Shown: in pieces, positions 40,181 to 51,655 of the stretch | Position numbering within the stretch: position 1 is the first letter of the stretch | How the letters are laid out: each line of letters starts with the position of its first letter | NCBI GenBank assembly: GCA_017450705.1 | Contig: JAFSTC010000053.1 | Coordinates: 1 to 64,000 of the forward strand | DNA: 64,000 bases | Origin: Lentisphaeria bacterium | GTDB taxonomy: Bacteria; Verrucomicrobiota; Lentisphaeria; Victivallales; Victivallaceae | Direction of reading: 5' to 3' | The notes under the pieces: generated by a model | Databases searched by the model: none | The model's input: the letters and a program-made list of their open reading frames with translations, nothing else | Told to the model about the DNA's origin: nothing | Translations under genes and position numbers: made by a program

Positions 40181-41315
40181 AGCGGCACGCCGCCGCGGCC
40201 TGGAGGAAGAAGATCGTCCCCAGGTCCCGCAGCTGCCAGGGGATGCGGTCGCTGCCGTCGGGCGGCAGGATCTTTTCGAGGACGGCGCCGTCCAGCTCCG
40301 GACGGTCCGGGCAGTCGAACTGCATGGCAAGGCAGAAATCCAGCGCCTTTTCGATGGATGGCGTGAGAGACTCGTCCTTGAAAAAGGCCCGGCAGTCGGC
40401 CAATACCAGCGCCGCGCAAGCGCTTCCGCTGGCCGAGTGGCCGAAGCTGTAAGTGTTGAACCCCGGCCCCGTGTGGCGGAAGAGACCGCCGTCCAGCCGC
40501 AGCGCCGAGCGGTACCATTCGGCGGACCGCCGGAAACAGTCGAGGAATCTTTTGTCCCCCGTGGCCTCGTAAACGGCCCGCATGGGGCGTCCCCACCAGT
40601 AGGCCTGACGGGGATGGATCAATCCTTCGGAACTGACGCAGGGGATGTACCGGCCCCAGTTGCCCGCGGGATCCTCCTCCTTCAGAAGCATTTCCGCCGT
40701 TTCGAGGGCGATCCGCCGGAAATCCTCCCGGCCCGTGAGACGCCACCCGGTGAGAAACACCCCGTCGTCCAGAAGCGGGCGCTCCACCGAGGCCGCGTGG
40801 GTGAAGAAGCAACGGCGGTTCCCGACGTCGTAGGTGCCGCGGAATTTTTTCGTCTCATCGTTCCACATCTTGCGGGCGGTCCAGTCCAGCGCGGCGACGG
40901 CGGCGTCGGCGTAACGGGCGTCCCCCGTCCTTTCCGACAGCAGGAAGAGACCGTCGAGGGACTCCAGGACGGCGGAGGTGTTGACCAGCCGGGGATCGTC
41001 CTCGAAGGCGAGCAGAAGTCCCGCGTCCTCCCCCTCCCGGAGCTGATTGGCGAGGATGAAATCCGCGCAGAACGCCGCCTCCGGGAGTTTGTCCAGCATG
41101 ACGAGGGCCTTGACCGCCTGCCCCGTGTGCCAGAGGGGGCAGAAACTGTCCCAGGCGCCTGTCGTCGACAGGTACTCCCCGCGGATGGCCCCGTTCCACG
41201 AAAGAAGAGCCATGGCCCGGCCCCGGCCGCCCACCGGGCGGCCGTCCGTCACCAGCGCCGGGCCGGTCAGCCAGCCGACGGCGGAAGCGACTTTTTCCTC
41301 GAAAGTCTTTCTCAA
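40167..41315 (-). CDS. Six-hairpin (alpha/alpha-barrel) glycosidase-like protein
   Basis: A 382-residue cytosolic protein with repeated helical hairpins: WHTGQAVKALVMLDKLPEA, LVNTSAVLESLDGLFLLSERTGD, LLDDGVFLTGWRLTGREDF, YWWGRPMRAVYEATGDKRFLD (each under the repeat pattern) spaced at about 50 residues, as in alpha/alpha-barrel glycosidases such as GH88/GH105/GH127. Catalytic residues cannot be named. Its ATG overlaps the stop of the large GH42-like gene (ATGA), so it probably finishes degradation of oligosaccharides released by that enzyme. Confidence 0.68.
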   Translation of the reverse strand: MRKTFEEKVASAVGWLTGPALVTDGRPVGGRGRAMALLSWNGAIRGEYLSTTGAWDSFCPLWHTGQAVKALVMLDKLPEAAFCADFILANQLREGEDAGLLLAFEDDPRLVNTSAVLESLDGLFLLSERTGDARYADAAVAALDWTARKMWNDETKKFRGTYDVGNRRCFFTHAASVERPLLDDGVFLTGWRLTGREDFRRIALETAEMLLKEEDPAGNWGRYIPCVSSEGLIHPRQAYWWGRPMRAVYEATGDKRFLDCFRRSAEWYRSALRLDGGLFRHTGPGFNTYSFGHSASGSACAALVLADCRAFFKDESLTPSIEKALDFCLAMQFDCPDRPELDGAVLEKILPPDGSDRIPWQLRDLGTIFFLQAAAACRSNRE

Positions 41316-44300
41316 AGCGGGCTTTCCTTATTCGGAACTTTTTCTGCAAATTCGAACCACCGCGACTCGCCGGCGTCGAGGACGATGGCATGCTCCTTCA
41401 CTTCCTTCCCCGTTTCCGCGTCGACGAGCCGGGTCCGGCCCGGCGGCAGCGAAAGGGGATATCTGCCCGCCTTCAGCGCGTGCAGCGAAAGAAAATTGCC
41501 GTTCATGTCGGCGACGACGCCCGGACGGGCGACCGCATATCCCCCCGCCGCACGGACGATGTTGTAAAAGAGCACCGGGTCCAGAGCCCCCGGAACGCCG
41601 CAGAACACGGCCGTGAAATCCTTGTGGCGGCGCACCGCCACCGCGCTTTCGCCCGAGGCGTACCGCGCCAGCGTGACGGCCTTCTTATCGGTGACGATCC
41701 ACCGGGGCAGTCTGTGGCGCCAGGGATCCTCTTTGCCCAATTCGAAGCGGCGGCGGTAGGCGTCGGCGACGCCCAGGGTCTCCGGCACGCCCGCCAGCAG
41801 GGGGTGATCCGCCTTTTCCCGCAGGATGAGCGTTTCGGCAGGAGCGGGATCGAACTTCGTTTCGATCCCGGTGAGGGAGGCGGTGTCCCCGGAGGCGCGG
41901 GAGCCCCCCGGCGTGCCCGTGCCGCCGACCCAGACGACGGTGCGGCCGTCTTTGAGCAGCTTTTCGCGCATGAAGGTCTTTTCCTCATCCGTGAGATGGA
42001 CGGGGTTGAGGAGGACGAACACCCGGAAACGCCGGTGCCGCCCCTCTTTCATCAGGTCGCTCATCAGCATGGTCGCGGGGAAGACCCCGGAGCCGCGCAG
42101 CGCCCACATCATCTCCTCGGTCATGAGGCCGCTGTGGTTGCCCCGCTTGCCCCCGCCCAGGGGGACGCTGCCGAACAGGCCGTTTTGAAACGTCACCCAG
42201 ACCGTGTCGGGCGTAAAATCGTCGCTTCCGGCGTTTTCGAAGACCCGGTCGGCGGTCTCGCGGACCGTCTTCATGAGGGAGACCGTTTCCGGCGCGCGGA
42301 AGGTCCCGTTGCCCATGTCGTAGAACCAGAGTCCCTGATACGCGGCGATCATCCGGCCGGACTCCTTGAGCATGACGCTGCGCATCTCCCGCTGGTTCAG
42401 GGGGGTCCCGATCTTCATGCCGTAGAGCTCGGCGTAGCCGGAGCCCCGGAGCCAGCTGCGGAGATCCAGTTCGGACACGGCCATTTTGCCGTGGAGCCCG
42501 TTGGAATCCGCGACCATGTTCAGGCCGCCGGAGTACCCCGCAGGGCGGTAGTGGTACATGGGCTGGGCCGCGAAGAGATCATGGCCCTTCGAGCCGTAGA
42601 GGGCGTCGAAATTCTGGCTCCACGTCCCGCCGAAGCACCACGAAAAGCCCAGGATCTCCCGGCCGAAAGCCGCCTTGCAGAGGGCGAGGTAATATCCGGA
42701 GTTGAGCCAGATCTGCCGCTCTTCGAATTCCTTGAAATCCATCTGCCGCCGGGAGGTCGCCGGATCGTACCAGTTCCCCGGCAGAGTATTGCCGTCGGTT
42801 TCGGGAGGGACGGCGGCCGTCGCGATGGCGGCCGCGGGATCGCGCCACGCCCGGCGCAGGGCGTCGTCATTTCCGTAGCGCTCCTTGAGAAACCTGCGCC
42901 ACGCCCGGGTCGCCGCGGGGCCGTAGTCCCGGAAAGGAATGAAAAACTGCCCGTCGTGCCCGCCGGAGATGAAGACGCCCGAGATCACTTTGGCGTAGGG
43001 CTTTTTGACAAGCTCTTCCAGAAACTTGCGGAGGATGACGCCGGAGGACTCCCGGGCTTTTTCGGAAAATTGCGAGGGCCACCACAGCAGGTTCCCGCCC
43101 TTGGGCAGGGTCTTGGCGAAACCCGTGACGACGCAGGGCGTCCCGCAGGCCCGCTGTCCCCGCGCGTCCAGATAAGCCTCCTCCGGGTTCTTCTCCACGA
43201 AGTCGTCGGGGAAAGCGACGTTGATCCCCAGCACGGGCGAAGACTCCGGCGCTTTGCACAGGGCGGACTCGATGATCTCGAAGAGGGGCGAAAAATCCAG
43301 TTTGCCGGAGCCGTCCCGGATCCCCCGGAAGGGCGGGTAGCGGCAGCTGCTGCGCATATTCACCGTCACCACCGGCTGACGGATCCCGACCTCGCGGCAG
43401 AAAAGTTCGCAGTCGCCCAGCGCGCCGTTGAAGCTGAGCATGAAGACGGGGGAGACGGTCTTTCCGTTGAGTTCCAGAACGCTCTTTCCCCCGGACGTGC
43501 ACCCGATGCGGGCCGTCACCGCGGGGCGGCCGGCGATCCTGCGCAGCGTCTCCTCCAGAGTGTGTCCGGGGGTGCTGTAGGTGCGTCCGGCGTCGGCGAA
43601 ATCGATCTCCCGCGCGGGGAACTCCAGATCGTCGAGGTAAACCGTCACGGGATTGCCGTACAAAACCACAGCCGGACGCAGAGGCTGGTCGTACTTCCGC
43701 GGACCGGCCAGGATCAGACGCTTGCCCCATGCGGCGCCCGGGGTGTTGACGAGGACGCTCTGCCCCTGCCATCCGGCGCCGCCGAAAAACCGGGTGTCGT
43801 GCCACTGGATGGAGCCGTCCGGCTTCAGGAACCGGGGCAGGAGAAGCGAATTGTACGAAGCATCGCCGCAGCGGTAGTGCAGACGGAATATCCACGGCTT
43901 TTTCCCGTTCCCGGCGGGGATCGTCACGGGGAAGGCGCTGGCCAGAAGAATGTATCCTTTGCCGTTGGTCTTGACGATTTTGAGCGACTGTCTCCCCGTC
44001 CGCGCCCGGTCGGAAACGACTTCATAACGGCCCTCGGCGCCGTCCTCGAACGTGATCCGCCAGCCGTAGAGGGCATCGTTTCTCGAGGCCTCGAAACTGC
44101 TGTCGGGCAGAAACGACGGACCGCTCAGCGCGTGGGGGGGACTGGCCCAGCGCACATACCCGGCAAGCTCGGGCGGCGTTCCCCCCGGCATGCCGCGGAC
44201 GGTGTTGGCCATGCAGAGGCGCACGCCGAAATTATTGGAAAGCAAGGCATTCCGGATGAAGGGGAAGGCCCCCTTCCCCAGCCGGGTCAGGGCCGAGGCC

Positions 44301-45052
44301 GCGTGGACGCGAACGGCTTCGTTGCGGTGGGTCAGCTGGGAAGCCAGCGTCTCCGCGCAGGGCAGGGCCGCCTCCCCGAAGGAGCCCAGTCTGTACGCCG
44401 CCCGGAAACGGACCTGACGCTCCGGATCGTCCGGCGTGTCCTCGAGGGCCAGAACCGCCCACGGCACGCGCCAGTCGGTGGAGCCGTCGATCAGCCTGAT
44501 CCGCTCCTCAACCGGGCGGCGTGAGAAGTCTTCGGGGAGCAAATGGACGAAACTTGCCGCCGAGGGCGTCCCGCAGGAGATCTTTTTTACGCTCCCCGCA
44601 CCGCTCAGGGTCAGGACCGGGACGAGAAAGGCCGTCCCCTCGGGCAGTTCCGCCGGAACGGAGACGGCGGCGTCGCCGAAAGGCTTCGAGCCGCACCTGT
44701 GACTTTTGATGAATCTCCCGGCCCGGTTGTAACAGTAGAACGAAAAACGCGCCTCGCCCTGCCCCGCGGCCGCCGCCGAAAAGAGGATGTTCCCGTTTTT
44801 GAACTTGTCGGCGTCCAGCCGGAAATTCCGGCCGCTGACGACCACGAGGCCGCCGCCTGAGGAGAATTCGATGCGCCCGGCGCCCTTGACCGCCGCCGCG
44901 GCCTTTTTGCCCTTGAGGGTGATCTGCCAGTATTTCAACTCCTCGCGGCTGTCCCCGGAAAACCGGGCAAGGCCGGGATCCGGCAGCAGCTCGGCGGCAA
45001 AGCACGCCGCGGATACGGAAAACAGTCCCAAAAGAAATTTTTTCCAGTTCAT
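41312..45052 (-). CDS. Giant secreted GH42-like protein with HEAT repeats
   Basis: A 1246-residue exported protein with a signal peptide (about 1-20, SAACFAAEL). Residues about 205-290 form HEAT-type helical repeats (FRAAYRLGSFGEAALPCAE, VRVHAASALTRLGKGAFPF); about 310-500 is a CBM-like beta-sandwich; about 540-960 a TIM barrel in which GGHDGQFFIPFRDYGPAA and RYGNDDALRRAWRDP match beta-galactosidases of the GH42 kind; about 1000-1150 is a glutaminase-like fold (FVLLNPVHLTDEEKTFM), the usual GH42 trimerisation domain. ATG 45052 was preferred over an upstream in-frame ATG because the signal peptide starts there. Substrate unknown. Confidence 0.72.
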   Translation of the reverse strand: MNWKKFLLGLFSVSAACFAAELLPDPGLARFSGDSREELKYWQITLKGKKAAAAVKGAGRIEFSSGGGLVVVSGRNFRLDADKFKNGNILFSAAAAGQGEARFSFYCYNRAGRFIKSHRCGSKPFGDAAVSVPAELPEGTAFLVPVLTLSGAGSVKKISCGTPSAASFVHLLPEDFSRRPVEERIRLIDGSTDWRVPWAVLALEDTPDDPERQVRFRAAYRLGSFGEAALPCAETLASQLTHRNEAVRVHAASALTRLGKGAFPFIRNALLSNNFGVRLCMANTVRGMPGGTPPELAGYVRWASPPHALSGPSFLPDSSFEASRNDALYGWRITFEDGAEGRYEVVSDRARTGRQSLKIVKTNGKGYILLASAFPVTIPAGNGKKPWIFRLHYRCGDASYNSLLLPRFLKPDGSIQWHDTRFFGGAGWQGQSVLVNTPGAAWGKRLILAGPRKYDQPLRPAVVLYGNPVTVYLDDLEFPAREIDFADAGRTYSTPGHTLEETLRRIAGRPAVTARIGCTSGGKSVLELNGKTVSPVFMLSFNGALGDCELFCREVGIRQPVVTVNMRSSCRYPPFRGIRDGSGKLDFSPLFEIIESALCKAPESSPVLGINVAFPDDFVEKNPEEAYLDARGQRACGTPCVVTGFAKTLPKGGNLLWWPSQFSEKARESSGVILRKFLEELVKKPYAKVISGVFISGGHDGQFFIPFRDYGPAATRAWRRFLKERYGNDDALRRAWRDPAAAIATAAVPPETDGNTLPGNWYDPATSRRQMDFKEFEERQIWLNSGYYLALCKAAFGREILGFSWCFGGTWSQNFDALYGSKGHDLFAAQPMYHYRPAGYSGGLNMVADSNGLHGKMAVSELDLRSWLRGSGYAELYGMKIGTPLNQREMRSVMLKESGRMIAAYQGLWFYDMGNGTFRAPETVSLMKTVRETADRVFENAGSDDFTPDTVWVTFQNGLFGSVPLGGGKRGNHSGLMTEEMMWALRGSGVFPATMLMSDLMKEGRHRRFRVFVLLNPVHLTDEEKTFMREKLLKDGRTVVWVGGTGTPGGSRASGDTASLTGIETKFDPAPAETLILREKADHPLLAGVPETLGVADAYRRRFELGKEDPWRHRLPRWIVTDKKAVTLARYASGESAVAVRRHKDFTAVFCGVPGALDPVLFYNIVRAAGGYAVARPGVVADMNGNFLSLHALKAGRYPLSLPPGRTRLVDAETGKEVKEHAIVLDAGESRWFEFAEKVPNKESPL

Positions 45053-45190
45053 TTGCCCTTTCCCCATCAAAAACCAGACGGGAAGTAAGTTACATCCCCT
45101 GCCGCCCCATTGCAAGCCGCCGGGAAAAAGTTCTGTTGTACGGCCCTGCCTTATTGTTGCAAAAGATTGCTGTCTGACTGAATGCTGTGG

Positions 45191-45236: not shown

Positions 45237-46409
45237 TCATACCTCATACCTGCCGCTCTGCGGCGTCCGCCCGGCAAAGATGGCGGCGCCGCGGGCCAGG
45301 GAGTTGTCGAAGTCCAGCCGGATGAAATGGATCGCAAGATCCGCCCTCACCGGGGAAAACACGAGTTCCCGGATCACCCGTTCCAGCATGTCCTGAAACT
45401 TTTGTCCCAGCTCCAGCATCCGCCCGGTGACGACCAGCCGATCCACGGGGCAGCTGTTGAGCTGATTGGCGATGGCCGTTCCCAGAAAACGGGCGGCCTT
45501 TTCCGTCTCCTCCGTCACGACGGCGTCGCAGGATCGGAAGAGCCGGCACAGGCCGTCGAACCCCAGACCGGGCTCGCCGAGCTTCTCCCGGCAGACCCGC
45601 AGCAGGGCGCGGATGGAGGCCACGGTTTCGAGACACCCTTCCCTGCCGCAGCCGCAGGGCAGGCCCCCGGGGACGCAGATGCTGTGCCCCAGCTCGCCGC
45701 CGTGGTTGTTCCGGACGAAGAGGAAACGCCCCTGCTCGGAGATCAGCGAGCCGATGCCGCTGCCCGAAGAGATCAGCATGACCGATCCGGAACAGAATTC
45801 GGGGAAATTCCGGGTCAGGAAAGCCATTTTCGCCACCAGATGGTCGCAGATCGCCACGCCGCCTCCCGTCTCCGCCTCGAGGAAGGGCCGCAGAGCCAGT
45901 CCGTTGAGCGCCGGGAGGGCCGCCGCGTTTTCCAGCGTGAAGTCCGGTCCGCCGTAACTGCCGAAAACGGCGGCGCCCGTCCCCGCCAAACGCTCCCCGG
46001 CGTGAGCCCTCACGGCGCGGATGACCCGCGAGACGGCGGCAAGAAAATCCCCGCGGCCGGGGACGGCGGGGAAGACGATCTGCTCCCGGGCCCGGATCTC
46101 GCCCCGCAGATCGGTCACGACGCCGGTGATGCGCTCGGCCTCAAGCGAGATCCCGGCCAGCGCCGGACCCGCCGGATCGAGCAAAAGTTTCTCCCGGGGA
46201 CGGCCGTGTTCCGATCCCGCTTTCTCCCCGGGCATGAGGATCTTCCGGGCGATCAGTTCGCGCACCGCCCGCGAGACGGTGGTGTTGTCGCACCCCATCC
46301 GCCGGGCGATCTCGGTCCGCGAAAGCCCCTCGGACTCGAGCAGTATCTCCAGCACCGCCTGCAGGTTCCTGCTCCTGATGTCGTTCAGTTTAAGTATCTT
46401 TTCTTTCAT
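45237..46409 (-). CDS. ROK-family transcriptional repressor
   Basis: A 390-residue NagC/XylR-type regulator. An N-terminal winged helix (SRTEIARRMGCDNTTVSRAV, residues about 29-48) is followed by the sugar-kinase-like ROK domain with ISSGSGIGSLI and the zinc motif GGELGHSICVPGGLPCGCG followed by REGCLE. In such proteins the ROK domain binds a sugar or sugar phosphate, releasing DNA. It is divergent from the split transketolase operon, its likely target, and may also act on the GH42-like gene behind it. The stop codon lies inside a GGTATGA heptamer repeat. Confidence 0.88.
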   Translation of the reverse strand: MKEKILKLNDIRSRNLQAVLEILLESEGLSRTEIARRMGCDNTTVSRAVRELIARKILMPGEKAGSEHGRPREKLLLDPAGPALAGISLEAERITGVVTDLRGEIRAREQIVFPAVPGRGDFLAAVSRVIRAVRAHAGERLAGTGAAVFGSYGGPDFTLENAAALPALNGLALRPFLEAETGGGVAICDHLVAKMAFLTRNFPEFCSGSVMLISSGSGIGSLISEQGRFLFVRNNHGGELGHSICVPGGLPCGCGREGCLETVASIRALLRVCREKLGEPGLGFDGLCRLFRSCDAVVTEETEKAARFLGTAIANQLNSCPVDRLVVTGRMLELGQKFQDMLERVIRELVFSPVRADLAIHFIRLDFDNSLARGAAIFAGRTPQSGRYEV

Positions 46410-46467
46410 GATGACCGTAAAATACTCTTTTTTTCGAAAAATTCAACTCGCTTTCCGCATTTTTCAT

Positions 46468-46495
46468 TTGACTTTCCGGTTTTCCGGTGTATTTT
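46468..46495 (+). promoter_or_regulatory. Predicted promoter of the transketolase-SDR operon
   Basis: TTGACT (46468-46473), 16-bp spacer, TATTTT (46490-46495), 38 bp before the GTG start. The spacer contains two copies of TTTCCGG. A TTTTTCGAAAAA palindrome lies nearer the ROK gene (about 46430-46441). Confidence 0.5.
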
Positions 46496-46533
46496 TAGAC
46501 AAGTGAAAATAAATACCCGAAAGGAGGTGTTCC

Positions 46534-47358
46534 GTGAACGACGAACAATTGAAAACGTGCCGGGAACTGGCGAAGAAGGTGAGGATCCACTGCCTGAAAA
46601 TGGTGCACAAGGGCAAGAGCGGCCACATCGGCAGCATGCTCTCGATGGCGGACATCCTGCCCGTGCTGTACACGCAGATCCTGAACACCGCCCCCGCATC
46701 CCCGAAGAAGCCGGACCGGGACCGGTTCATCCTGAGCAAGGGCCACGGGGGCGCCGCCCTGCTGGCCACGCTGGCCGAACTGGGCTTCTTCCCCCTGTCG
46801 TGGCTGGACGAATACTACTGCGACAACGGCAAACTCAGCGGCCACATCTCGCACCACATCCCCGGAGTGGAGTTCTCCACGGGCTCCCTGGGCCACGGCC
46901 TGCCCGTCGCCTGCGGCATGGCCATGGCCGCGAAACAGGCCGGGAAGAAACACCGCATCTTCTGTCTTGTCAGCGACGGCGACCTCGACGAAGGCTCCAG
47001 CTGGGAGGCGGTCATGCTGGCTGCCCAGCACCACTGGGACAACCTCGTCATGCTGGTGGACTACAACCGCCTGCAGGCCCTCGGGAAATCCCGGGACATC
47101 ATCGATCTGGAATCCCTGAAGGAGAAGCTGGAGATCTTCAACTGGGCCGTCCGCGAAGCCGACGGGCACGATCAGAACGCGATTTTTGAAGTTCTCCGGG
47201 ATCTGCCCCTGTGCAACGGCAAACCCTCCGCCGTCATCTTCCACACGGTCAAGGGCAAGGGCGTCTCGTTCATGGAAAACAACTACAAATGGCACTACGG
47301 CGGTCTGACCGACGAACTGCTGGCAAAAGCCATCAAAGAGGTGGAGGCGGCGAAATGA
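46534..47358 (+). CDS. Transketolase-like protein, N-terminal subunit
   Basis: Thiamine-diphosphate and Mg-binding half of a split transketolase, 274 residues. It shows GKSGHIGSMLSMADIL, FILSKGHGGAALLA, and the diphosphate motif SDGDLDEGSSWEA ending DYNRLQ. GTG 46534 is the start, after a perfect AAAGGAGGT site. It overlaps the C-terminal subunit by 4 bp. Split transketolases act in the pentose phosphate pathway but also in catabolic loci for apiose-type or sulfo-sugars; the ROK repressor upstream and dehydrogenase downstream point to a dedicated catabolic role (inference). Confidence 0.9.
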   Translation: MNDEQLKTCRELAKKVRIHCLKMVHKGKSGHIGSMLSMADILPVLYTQILNTAPASPKKPDRDRFILSKGHGGAALLATLAELGFFPLSWLDEYYCDNGKLSGHISHHIPGVEFSTGSLGHGLPVACGMAMAAKQAGKKHRIFCLVSDGDLDEGSSWEAVMLAAQHHWDNLVMLVDYNRLQALGKSRDIIDLESLKEKLEIFNWAVREADGHDQNAIFEVLRDLPLCNGKPSAVIFHTVKGKGVSFMENNYKWHYGGLTDELLAKAIKEVEAAK

Positions 47359-48296
47359 GAAAGGCTTTCAACAAGGAACTGCTGAAGATCGCGAAGAAGG
47401 ATCCCCGCATCTTCATGATCCTGGCGGATATCGGCTACGGCGAGATCGAGGAGTTCGCCGAGACCTTCCCCGACCGCTTCATCAACTGCGGCGTGGCCGA
47501 ACAGAACATGACCGGCGTCGCCTGCGGCGTGGCCATGGAGGGCAACATCGCCGTCACCTACTCCATCGCCAACTTCCCCACGCTCCGCTGTCTGGAACAG
47601 ATCCGCAACGACGTCTGCTACCACGACGCCAATGTGAAGATCGTCATCATCGGCGGCGGCATGGCCTACGGCGAACTGGGGATCTCCCACCACTCCACCG
47701 AGGACATCGCCATCATGCGCGCCTTGCCCAACATGGTGGTGCTGGCCCCCTGCGACAAGGCCGAGACCGTCGCCCTCACCGATGCCATGATGGCCTATGA
47801 CGGCCCCGTCTACTTCCGCTGCGGCTACAAGGGCGAACCCGATCTCCACTCCGGCCCTGTCAAGGTCAAGATCGGCGGCTCGCTCCGGCTCCGCGACGGC
47901 AAAGACGCCACGGTCTTTTTCGCGGGGACCGTCGGGATCAACGCCAGGAAGGCCGTGGAAGAGCTGGCCAAAGAGGGCATCGTGTGCCGGCTGGTCAGCC
48001 TCTACTCCGTCAAGCCCGTCGACAAACAGGCGATCCTGCGCGCCGCGAAGGAGACGGGCGGCATCGTGGTGCTGGAGGAACACAACATCTGCGGCGGCGT
48101 CGGCAGCGCCGTGGCCGAGGTGCTGATGGACGAGGGCGCGGGAGCCGTCCCCTTCAAGCGCCTGGCCATGCCCGACGTCAACGCGACAAAAGTCGGCTGT
48201 CAGGCCTGGATGCGCGACCAGTACGGCCTCGGCGTCAAGGACGTGATCGCGGCGGTTCGGGAGATCGTGAAAAACAGGAGGCGTTCTTCGAAATGA
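47355..48296 (+). CDS. Transketolase-like protein, C-terminal subunit
   Basis: Pyrimidine-binding half of the split transketolase, 313 residues, with INCGVAEQNMTGVACG carrying the catalytic Glu that activates thiamine diphosphate, GISHHSTEDIA, and the C-terminal swivel domain (VVLEEHNICGGVGSAVAE). Transketolase joins C2 units between sugar phosphates; DXP synthase and related enzymes share the fold, but the split arrangement and the HHSTED segment fit transketolase. Overlaps both neighbours by 4 bp. Confidence 0.9.
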   Translation: MRKAFNKELLKIAKKDPRIFMILADIGYGEIEEFAETFPDRFINCGVAEQNMTGVACGVAMEGNIAVTYSIANFPTLRCLEQIRNDVCYHDANVKIVIIGGGMAYGELGISHHSTEDIAIMRALPNMVVLAPCDKAETVALTDAMMAYDGPVYFRCGYKGEPDLHSGPVKVKIGGSLRLRDGKDATVFFAGTVGINARKAVEELAKEGIVCRLVSLYSVKPVDKQAILRAAKETGGIVVLEEHNICGGVGSAVAEVLMDEGAGAVPFKRLAMPDVNATKVGCQAWMRDQYGLGVKDVIAAVREIVKNRRRSSK

Positions 48297-49072
48297 GTTC
48301 GGACAATACTTTTCTCCCGCTGGCCGGGAAAACGGCCGTCGTCACCGGCGGCGCGGGCGGCATCGGACTTGCGGGCGTGCGGCTCTTCCGCAAGGCCGGC
48401 GCCCGTGTCATCATCGCCGACATCGACGAGGCGGCGGGGCAGCGGGCCGCAGCCGAGACAGGGGCGCTCTTCGTCCGCTGCGACGTTTCGAAAAGCGCCG
48501 ACGTGCAGAACGTCATTTCCGCCGCGGAGGGGAAGCTCGATATCCTCTACAACAACGCGGGCGTCTACTGGAACGGCCGCGACGGCCGCATCACCGACAT
48601 CGCAGAGGAGGACTGGGAACGGGTCCTGGCCATCAATTTGCGGAGCGTCTTCCTCTTCTGCAAGTACGGTCTGCCCCTGCTGATGAAACAGGGCGGAAGC
48701 GTCATCAACACCGCCTCCAGCGCGGGCGTGATCGGCATCCCCGACTGCGACGCCTACACGGCGACCAAGGGCGCCATCGTCCAGCTGACGAAATCCATGG
48801 CGGCGGAGTACGGCAGGTACAACGTCCGGGTCAACTGCATCGCGCCCGCGGCGATCATGACGCCCATGATGCGCCAGAGCAATCCGGAGAACTCCACCTT
48901 CGACGAGGAGCGTTTCCTGAAACTGCGCACCCCCCTGCGGCGCTACGGTACCCCGGAGGAGATCGCAAAAGTCGCCCTCTTCCTGGCCTCGGCGGAGTCC
49001 AGCTACCTCAACGGCGCGATCATCGTCGCCGACGGCGGGATCACCATCAACGGCGATCTTTCGAAGTGCTGA
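48293..49072 (+). CDS. Short-chain dehydrogenase/reductase
   Basis: NAD(P)-dependent alcohol or sugar dehydrogenase of the classical SDR type, 259 residues. It has the cofactor motif TGGAGGIG, NNAG, the catalytic Ser in NTASSAGV, YTATK with the Tyr and Lys, and a closing VADGGITI. IIADIDEA after the second strand has Asp at the position that favours NAD over NADP. Third gene of the ROK-controlled operon; it probably oxidises or reduces the sugar that feeds the transketolase. Its 3' end overlaps the convergent gene by 26 bp. Confidence 0.88.
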   Translation: MSSDNTFLPLAGKTAVVTGGAGGIGLAGVRLFRKAGARVIIADIDEAAGQRAAAETGALFVRCDVSKSADVQNVISAAEGKLDILYNNAGVYWNGRDGRITDIAEEDWERVLAINLRSVFLFCKYGLPLLMKQGGSVINTASSAGVIGIPDCDAYTATKGAIVQLTKSMAAEYGRYNVRVNCIAPAAIMTPMMRQSNPENSTFDEERFLKLRTPLRRYGTPEEIAKVALFLASAESSYLNGAIIVADGGITINGDLSKC

Positions 49073-50687
49073 GGGACCGGAAAAAAGGCTTCATCTCCAG
49101 CAGAAGCCGGTCGAGATCGTCCTCGGGGACGTCTTTCCGCAGCCGCGCCCAGAGTTCGGGCAGGGGCAGCTCCAGCGTATGCGCGATCTCCGCCGAAGCC
49201 GTATCCGGCGAGGCGAGGAGATCGGCGATTCTGCCGCACAGCTCCCGCACGGGGATGAGGCGGAGCATCACGTCGCCCACGCGCTCGGGCTTTTCCCCCC
49301 GGGCCGCCAGACAGGCGAAGGTGGAGACGACGGAGTTATAAAAGGGTTTGCTCCCCGGCCCGAAGGTGTTGGGCATAAGAAGCGCCGTCGCGTCGATCCC
49401 CTCCCGGGCGAAGAGCGCCATGGCGTCGCGCTTGCTTTTGTGGTAGGGCAGATCGTGATCGATGACATGGGGACTGCTGGCGAAAAAGAGGCGCGTCTTC
49501 CTCCCCTTCAGCGCCCGGGCGAGTTTTTCCGCAAGAAGCATGTTCGTCCGGTAGAGGAAATCCCCGTCGGCGTGGCGGCTCAATCCCGCGAAATGGATGA
49601 CCCTTTCCGCGCCGGAGAGGGTCTTTTTCAACAGCGCTTCGTCGTCCCACAGGGCGCGGCCGATCGTCATGTACGGAATTTTCCGCGCTTCCAGTTCTCG
49701 GATCATGAAGGAGCCGATGAAGCCCTCCGCGCCGGTGACGGCGGTCGCCGCGGGAGGCAGTCCGAAGGGCGCGGGGCTGGTGAAACGCATGGGCTCCCCC
49801 GTGGCGGGGTGGCGGAAAACGATCTCCGACGCGTGGAGCGCCTGCCGGGGGAGAATGAGTTTTTTTCTGTCCTCCGCCGTCAGTTCGTCGGTCTTCTGCC
49901 GGAGATAGAAGTTTTCGTCGAGCCCGTACAGTTTGTCCCCGACGACGGGATACCCCAAACTCGACAGCGTGGCGCGGATCTGGTGCATCCGCCCGGTGCC
50001 GAGGGTCGCCCGCAGCAGGGAAAAGTCACCGCTCCGCCCCAGGGGCTCGAAAAAAGTCTCGGCGCTTTCGCAGGGCCCTTCGGGAGCCTCCCGGGTGAAC
50101 CTGCGCTTCTTGCGGATGACGCTGGAACAGTCCTTGGAGAGGAATCCCGCGGCGTGCAGGGGCCCGTCGAACCGCCCGTGGACCATGACGGTGTAGACTT
50201 TCTTTTCGATCAGGCTGCGGGCGCCGAACCGGGCGGCGGCTGTTTTGTCCCGGGCGGCGATCATGAGGCCCGAGGTCTCCCGGTCGAGCCGGTTGACGAA
50301 GTGGATGTCCCCGTACTTCGAGCAGAGCAGATGCCACAGGGTGTGCTTGAAAAAGGGCCCCGCCGGATGCACGCAGAGATTCCCGGGCTTGTCGATGACG
50401 AGAAGCTGTTCGTCCTCCCACACGGCGGACCAGTTCATGTCGGCGGGAGGCTCCGGCAGTTCAGCCGGATGGTAGGAGATCACATCGTGCATCTCGAGAC
50501 GCCTTTCCGGCTCCGCGGGGGCATCGTTGACGGTGATCTCCCCCGCGGCGATCACGGCGCGCCACCCCGGTTCGTCCCGGTAGGGGAAGCGGGAGACGAG
50601 AAAGGCGATGAGCGTCTGCCCGCAGCAGCTCCAGTCCACGGTGGAACGGACTTTGCGTCTTTGGAGGGAATCGGGGGTATGCTTCAT
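49047..50687 (-). CDS. RluA-family pseudouridine synthase fused to NAD(P)-epimerase domain
   Basis: A 546-residue two-domain protein. Residues about 15-310 are a complete RluA/RluD-type pseudouridine synthase: S4-like RNA-binding start (AVIAAGEITVNDAPA), VIDKPGNLCVHPAG, catalytic Asp135 in NRLDRETSG, and GRMHQIRATL. Residues about 315-490 are an extended short-chain dehydrogenase: TAVTGAEGFIGSFM nucleotide motif (318-325), Tyr415-x3-Lys419 in YHKSK, and PNTFGPGSKPFYNSVVSTF, which resembles CapF/FnlC sugar reductases. The reading frame runs through the junction with no stop. RNA modification joined to sugar-nucleotide chemistry is unusual. The ATG overlaps the apbE stop. Confidence 0.85.
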   Translation of the reverse strand: MKHTPDSLQRRKVRSTVDWSCCGQTLIAFLVSRFPYRDEPGWRAVIAAGEITVNDAPAEPERRLEMHDVISYHPAELPEPPADMNWSAVWEDEQLLVIDKPGNLCVHPAGPFFKHTLWHLLCSKYGDIHFVNRLDRETSGLMIAARDKTAAARFGARSLIEKKVYTVMVHGRFDGPLHAAGFLSKDCSSVIRKKRRFTREAPEGPCESAETFFEPLGRSGDFSLLRATLGTGRMHQIRATLSSLGYPVVGDKLYGLDENFYLRQKTDELTAEDRKKLILPRQALHASEIVFRHPATGEPMRFTSPAPFGLPPAATAVTGAEGFIGSFMIRELEARKIPYMTIGRALWDDEALLKKTLSGAERVIHFAGLSRHADGDFLYRTNMLLAEKLARALKGRKTRLFFASSPHVIDHDLPYHKSKRDAMALFAREGIDATALLMPNTFGPGSKPFYNSVVSTFACLAARGEKPERVGDVMLRLIPVRELCGRIADLLASPDTASAEIAHTLELPLPELWARLRKDVPEDDLDRLLLEMKPFFRSLSTSKDRR

Positions 50688-51655
50688 TTTCCGACGATGA
50701 CGACCCGGCTTTGCGGGATCTCTTTTTCGACCTTGTCCGCCAGTTCGCGGCCCCGCAGGAAGACGGCGGTGGAGAGCCAGTCCGCCCGCATGGCCGAGGG
50801 ACAGACGACCGTGACCGCGTGCCGCACTTCGGGAGGAGACCCCGTCGCGGGATCCATGATGTGCCCGTAGACTTTTCCGCCGTAGGTCACGTTCCGCTCG
50901 TAGTCGCCGCTGGTGGAGACGGCCGCGCCCGGCGCGGCCTCGATGACATGCCGCGTCAGCCGGTCCGGGTGGGCGGGATCCCGGATGCCGACCTTGTAAA
51001 ACCCGCCGCCCTTCCGCGGGGCGGGGAGAAATTTGAGGTTGCCGCCCAGATCCAGCACCCCCGCGGCGGTTCCGGGAACGGCCTGCGCGGCCAGATCGAG
51101 GGCGAACCCCTTGGCGATGCCCCCCAGATCGAGGGCCATGCCTTTGACCCCGAACCGGACGGTGTGCCGCTTTTCATCGAGGATCAGCTTGCCGAAGCCG
51201 ACGCGCTTTTTCGCTTCGGCGATCTCCCGGTCGGAAGGGGCCGTTCCCCGTTTGCGGTAAAAGCCCCAGAGATCCATGAGAGGCTTGACCGTGATGTCGA
51301 AGGCGCCGCCGCTGAACTCCCAGGCGAAACGGGCCTCGGCGAGCATCGCCCACATGAGGGGGGAGCAGGCGAAATCCCTTTCCCCCGCAGCGGCGTTGAG
51401 GCGGCAGAGCTCGCTCCCGGGATCCCGGAGATTGGCCGTCTGCACGATGCGGGCAAAGGCTCCGGCGGCCTGTTCGTTGAGTTTCAGCGCCGCGGGAGCA
51501 GCGGTGCCGTGCCATGTGAAGCACGCCACGGTGCCCATGGTCCGGAATACGAAACTCTCCCGCCGGTCCCGGGGCGAAGACGGAAAAATCAGCCAGGCAT
51601 CCGCCAGAAGCAGAAGCGCGGCGAGAACCAGTCCTGTCCGGGTCCGTCTGTCCAT
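50684..51655 (-). CDS. apbE: FAD:protein FMN transferase
   Basis: Attaches FMN covalently to flavoproteins (for example subunits of the Rnf or Nqr complex) outside the cytoplasmic membrane. The 323-residue protein has a membrane anchor or signal (about residues 8-26), TMGTVACF, SGGAFDITVKPLMDLWGF, ALDLGGIAKGFALD and STSGDYER, all ApbE marks; GHIMDPATGSP is the Mg/FAD region. No Rnf or Nqr genes are present here. It overlaps the fused pseudouridine synthase gene by 4 bp. Confidence 0.93.
   Translation of the reverse strand: MDRRTRTGLVLAALLLLADAWLIFPSSPRDRRESFVFRTMGTVACFTWHGTAAPAALKLNEQAAGAFARIVQTANLRDPGSELCRLNAAAGERDFACSPLMWAMLAEARFAWEFSGGAFDITVKPLMDLWGFYRKRGTAPSDREIAEAKKRVGFGKLILDEKRHTVRFGVKGMALDLGGIAKGFALDLAAQAVPGTAAGVLDLGGNLKFLPAPRKGGGFYKVGIRDPAHPDRLTRHVIEAAPGAAVSTSGDYERNVTYGGKVYGHIMDPATGSPPEVRHAVTVVCPSAMRADWLSTAVFLRGRELADKVEKEIPQSRVVIVGK

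Follow-up and report, generated by a model that had tools for sequence, protein, structure and literature searches.

A pseudouridine synthase of the RluA type joined to a short CapF-like SDR in three gut Lentisphaeria species

An RluA-type pseudouridine synthase and a short CapF-like short-chain dehydrogenase (SDR) are encoded as one protein in three gut Lentisphaeria species, probably as the result of one fairly recent fusion by which two independent enzymes are co-produced behind apbE, with no shared chemistry implied. The fusion is seen in a window of 64,000 nucleotides, positions 1 to 64,000 of contig JAFSTC010000053.1 (assembly GCA_017450705.1, genome G000 in what follows), as a frame that runs uninterrupted for 546 codons from an ATG start to a TGA stop. 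An earlier note on this DNA had read the frame as a complete RluA-type enzyme united with a complete SDR, and that reading holds, with PF00849 and PF01370 both present and the arrangement kept in two relatives. Coordinates are collected in Table 1, and residue numbers are those of the fused protein.

Table 1. Features of the fused gene and its neighbors in the window
Feature	Position	Strand	Remarks
Fused gene, RluA-type pseudouridine synthase + short CapF-like SDR	49047..50687	(-)	546 aa; frame and family matches
RluA part, S4-like N-terminal part + catalytic domain	49758..50687	(-)	Residues 1-310; family, motif, and Foldseek matches
PF00849 in RluA part	49962-50408	(-)	Pfam, residues 94-242
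Asp135 codon	50283-50285	(-)	Motif RLDRETSG
Junction	49746..49757	(-)	Residues 311-314, between RluA and SDR parts
SDR part	49050..49745	(-)	Residues 315-546; Pfam, CapF-type profile, motifs
PF01370 in SDR part	49272-49739	(-)	Pfam, residues 317-472
Tyr415-Lys419 codons	49431-49445	(-)	SDR active site
apbE (FAD:protein FMN transferase), upstream gene	50684..51655	(-)	PF02424
Second SDR gene	48293-49072		Opposite orientation to fusion
Split transketolase	46534-47358 + 47355-48296

The Pfam match to PF00849 scores 79.6 bits against a gathering threshold of 26.8 (E = 3.8 × 10−22), and the match to PF01370 scores 38.2 bits against 20.9 (E = 1.3 × 10−9). TIGR00005 aligns with residues 23-310 and the CapF-type model NF047837 with residues 317-472. 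The catalytic Asp of the R-L-D motif is present as Asp135 inside RLDRETSG (133-140), and the motifs of an extended/atypical SDR, TGxxGxxG and the S/T-Y-K active site, are present as TGAEGFIG (318-325), Ser404/Ser405, Tyr415, and Lys419, with FYNSVVSTF at 449-457, so that every residue and segment singled out before, from Asp135 and TGAEGFIG to Tyr415/Lys419 and YNSVV, is where it was said to be. The third codon position has a G+C of 0.85 in the RluA half versus 0.81 in the SDR half, as expected of a continuous coding sequence.

AlphaFold2, given an alignment, obtains both folds, with a mean pLDDT of 82.7 and a pTM of 0.54. The model is reliable for each half but, by its pTM, not for the placement of the domains relative to one another. 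The final modeled RluA strand stops at residue 303, and the first Rossmann strand begins at 315. Foldseek places the first half with RluD, PDB ID: 2ist (E = 5 × 10−22 over 310 columns), and also with RluA and RluC. The second half is matched to the UDP-GlcNAc C4-epimerase 6wj9 (E = 6 × 10−13) and to CapF 2zkl (E = 7 × 10−12), as well as to GDP-4-keto-6-deoxymannose reductase and GalE-type enzymes.

The RluA half has in common with RluD/RluC-type synthases (PF00849, TIGR00005) the catalytic Asp in RLDRETSG, the TGRMHQIR motif, and the S4-like N-terminal part, and it matches RluD structures over its full length; what sets the fused protein apart from the RluA family is the C-terminal SDR. With TIGR00005 it scores 180 bits against a cut-off of 192.7, and unfused orthologues score 166 bits. 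Since the RluA half falls under every equivalog cut-off, the family models do not assign its RNA target. In none of the fusion genomes was a close RluA orthologue found other than the fused one, the next match being a paralogue at 31-33%, and for that reason the RNA function of the fused RluA is presumably kept.

A set of 21 separate short SDRs supplied the conserved positions, shared by 80% or more of them, with which the SDR half was compared. The cofactor-motif glycines are all retained in the fused SDRs, as are Tyr415 and Lys419 and the segments PN-FG and NSVV-TF. The fused clade deviates at C360, T405 (Ser), T406 (Pro), C458 (Ala), and some further positions, and two cysteines that are invariant among the separate SDRs are missing from it.

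A search for the same fusion in related genomes, one of the checks proposed earlier, covered all 34 genomes of the genus and found it at full length with zero stops in 3, the window genome, G005, and G020. Identity to the window protein is 79% over residues 1-541 in G005 and 63% over residues 1-539 in G020. The three assemblies are separate: one from goat rumen, one from sheep colon, and the window's own. Compared with one another by the Nei-Gojobori method, the three fusions have a dN/dS of 0.09-0.17 in the catalytic part of RluA and of 0.20-0.26 in the SDR, with the values for distant pairs being rough as pS is high (0.43-0.72), and with the 19-codon linker too short by itself for a dependable value. 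Both halves are under purifying selection. In G020, scanning from residue 294, there is no in-frame ATG, GTG, or TTG ahead of TGAEGFIG, and the first one lies behind the motif; hence no intact SDR is made there apart from the fused protein. An ATG does lie in frame at codon 300 in G000 and G005, and in those two the SDR might also be initiated internally by itself.

The RluA part stands alone in 30 of the 34 genus members, at 50-60% identity, and 6 of those (G006, G009, G019, G068, G205, and G302) have a separate SDR gene on a contig different from that of RluA. A tree of RluA has the fused rows as one clade inside the genus (bootstrap 100, SH-aLRT 98), and this clade joins, with moderate support (89/90), G019, G009, G068, and G006. 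The SDR tree also has the fused rows as one clade (100/100), within an 11-row clade of Victivallaceae short SDRs (100/98), and the branch length to the fused SDRs is 1.01 changes per column versus 0.31 for the fused RluA. Because the genus is mostly unfused, separate SDRs exist, and both fused halves are monophyletic, the simplest account is a single fusion event in which an existing short SDR gene was attached to RluA at its 3′ end. In G021, a match that ran on through four stops behind RluA had suggested the remains of a decayed SDR; this was rejected, as tblastn repeated with only the SDR half found nothing at that place.

We consider the following reading fairly likely. In a sub-lineage of this Victivallaceae genus of the Lentisphaeria, one event would have joined a second RluA-family gene, located behind apbE, to a separate short SDR, and the resulting protein would be two enzymes that fold independently and probably work independently. 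We infer that both are catalytically active and that they are not coupled. The RluA half would isomerize uridine in rRNA or tRNA by means of Asp135, and the SDR half, of NADPH type, would reduce or epimerize a small nucleotide-sugar-like substrate by means of Ser405, Tyr415, and Lys419. The main effect of the join may then be that both enzymes are made together, in a fixed ratio, from the apbE operon. Two observations pull against this reading: the fusion has been kept down to 63% identity, a hint that the join does no harm and may even be of use, and the long branch of the fused SDRs with the two lost cysteines could represent adaptation to a new role.

As a short SDR the second domain is complete, but its counterpart in a CapF-like protein is the N-terminal half alone. 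CapF, FnlC, and WbcJ (UDP-2-acetamido-2,6-dideoxy-hexulose reductase) have in common with it, in their N-terminal SDR, the TGxxGxxG, YxxxK, and NSVV/NSVI-TF segments, and the best PDB match of a short-SDR profile is Staphylococcus aureus CapF, 2zkl, with E = 4 × 10−38 and with the Tyr and Lys aligned. CapF works in two steps, the first carried out on the CapE product by the cupin half and the second, an NADPH-dependent reduction, by the SDR half (PMC5393024). CapF is about 371 aa with its cupin, whereas the short SDRs are about 233-248 aa without one. The window protein gives no family match to the cupin, the C-terminal Zn epimerase domain of CapF, and stops about 232 residues past the SDR start; against NF047837 it reaches about 61 bits where the cut-off is 500, missing the CapF equivalog threshold. 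A search for PF08485, the marker of CapE, gave no match in the fusion genomes G000, G005 (83% complete), and G020 (76% complete), or in G006, G009, and G068. It is present in G045 and G050, within about 1 kb of a cupin-bearing CapF.

Relatives of the SDR fall into two length classes, the short one and a CapF-like one of about 365-380 residues, and among the loci examined the short class is almost wholly from Lentisphaerota. Family-wide, 78 genomes hold 24 short copies, 3 of them fused, and 10 CapF-length copies. G045, G050, and G048 carry both forms, which marks the short form as a separate paralogue. Because the cupin is absent and CapE was not detected, the short SDR is kin to the CapF reductase half but most likely has a different substrate. 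The label of CapF-like sugar reductase thus stands as a statement of homology, and identity with CapF was rejected, the cupin and the CapF pathway not having been found. An explanation in which the SDR half nevertheless makes a surface-polysaccharide nucleotide sugar as CapF does, in the UDP-FucNAc branch, with the join to RluA accidental, has the match to 2zkl in its favor, but we consider it improbable, if the best of the alternatives, as the half that does the first CapF reaction is missing, and the genomes with CapE and cupin-bearing CapF hold the short SDR as an additional gene. A Verrucomicrobiales short SDR (L113:3956-5892) lies beside a UDP-GlcNAc 2-epimerase gene and in the SDR tree goes with the CapF-length proteins; it may be an independent loss of the cupin.

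Flavin-related genes occur in the neighborhood. The apbE stop overlaps the fusion start as ATGA in the window, apbE is upstream of the fusion in all three fusion genomes, and an apbE homologue is directly before RluA in 8 of 27 unfused RluA loci examined. In G009, G006, G068, and G019, the short SDR comes directly after ribF (riboflavin kinase/FAD synthetase), most of the pairs overlapping start and stop (L056:6666-8269, L058:6887-8463, L060:6659-8037, and L065:8146-9560), and the fusion stands after apbE, also flavin-related, instead of ribF. A ribF origin of the fusion was considered and dropped: G000 has its ribF on a different contig and no second short SDR, so that the SDR may have relocated, in one direction or the other. 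A role of the SDR half in flavin or redox metabolism would fit both the ribF pairing in the four sister genomes and the apbE gene ahead of the fusion. We regard it as unlikely, since the ribF pairing is seen only in a single group of relatives and could have arisen once, adjacency of apbE and RluA also occurs in genus members that lack the SDR (G016 and G002, for example), and elsewhere the SDR has other neighbors.

Those other neighbors include, besides ribF, genes for DUF711, AsmA-like, M16 peptidase, DUF3047/tatC, dnaJ-like, and tonB-like proteins, and others. A constant functional partner was sought by scanning some dozen loci and was dropped as there is no shared theme, the variety being what is expected of a gene that has no constant companion. 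A DUF3047 gene precedes the short SDR in several Victivallis-related genomes (L062:6902-8313, L064:6882-8353, and L116:2934-4702), and in L064 tatC is a short way downstream.

On the other side of the fusion, positions 45237-49072 of the window, which lie between the fusion and a gene at 41312-45115, contain a ROK-type regulator, the split transketolase, and the second SDR gene, the last of which has a 26-base tail-to-tail overlap with the fusion at 49047-49072. In G005 (L051), the homologue of the 41312-45115 gene comes directly after the fusion. With the block missing between the same genes there, it looks like either a gain by the window genome or a loss from G005. The 41312-45115 product, of about 1250 aa, has a sub-threshold HEAT match alone in Pfam and is 77% conserved in G005.

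The earlier note suggested a new RNA-base or tRNA-sugar modification; in a reading of that kind, the SDR would act on or near the uridine handled by RluA and yield a reduced or epimerized nucleoside. The domains do remain fused and conserved across three species, and the fused SDR departs from separate SDRs at otherwise conserved sites on a long branch. Coupling of that kind nevertheless appears very unlikely: no RluA gene is near any separate SDR among the loci examined, the separate SDRs adjoin unrelated genes, relatives retain RluA without any SDR, and the closest SDR folds work on nucleotide sugars. If the halves were chemically coupled, a new RNA modification would follow, but nothing found speaks for it, and the fusion is one recent event in three species. 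As to a sequencing or assembly artefact, with a frameshift, misassembly, or overlooked stop, RluA is indeed a separate gene in most relatives, as the earlier note said an artefact would predict, but two relatives carry the fusion uninterrupted, and the same frame in three separate assemblies, with divergence across the junction region biased to synonymous changes, rules it out for practical purposes.

Both domains belong to known families, and it is the domain architecture that is new, by a search of the loci of this SDR family. A search of 84,980 species genomes gave 187 loci of the SDR family, and in the best 80 of these no RluA is combined with the SDR outside these relatives; no papers on RluA-SDR fusions were recognizable by titles and abstracts. 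Yeast-type Rib2 is a precedent for an RluA-type synthase fused to an unrelated metabolic enzyme, in that case a riboflavin-pathway deaminase; the partner there is different from the SDR of the window fusion. We regard the fusion in these three gut species as an evolutionary curiosity of modest interest. The likely parents of this joining of RluA to a cupin-less CapF-like SDR are still separate genes in the same genus, which makes the birth of the fusion traceable, and attention is drawn to the short, cupin-less relatives of the CapF reductase half, a family that is spread across Lentisphaerota and has been little studied.
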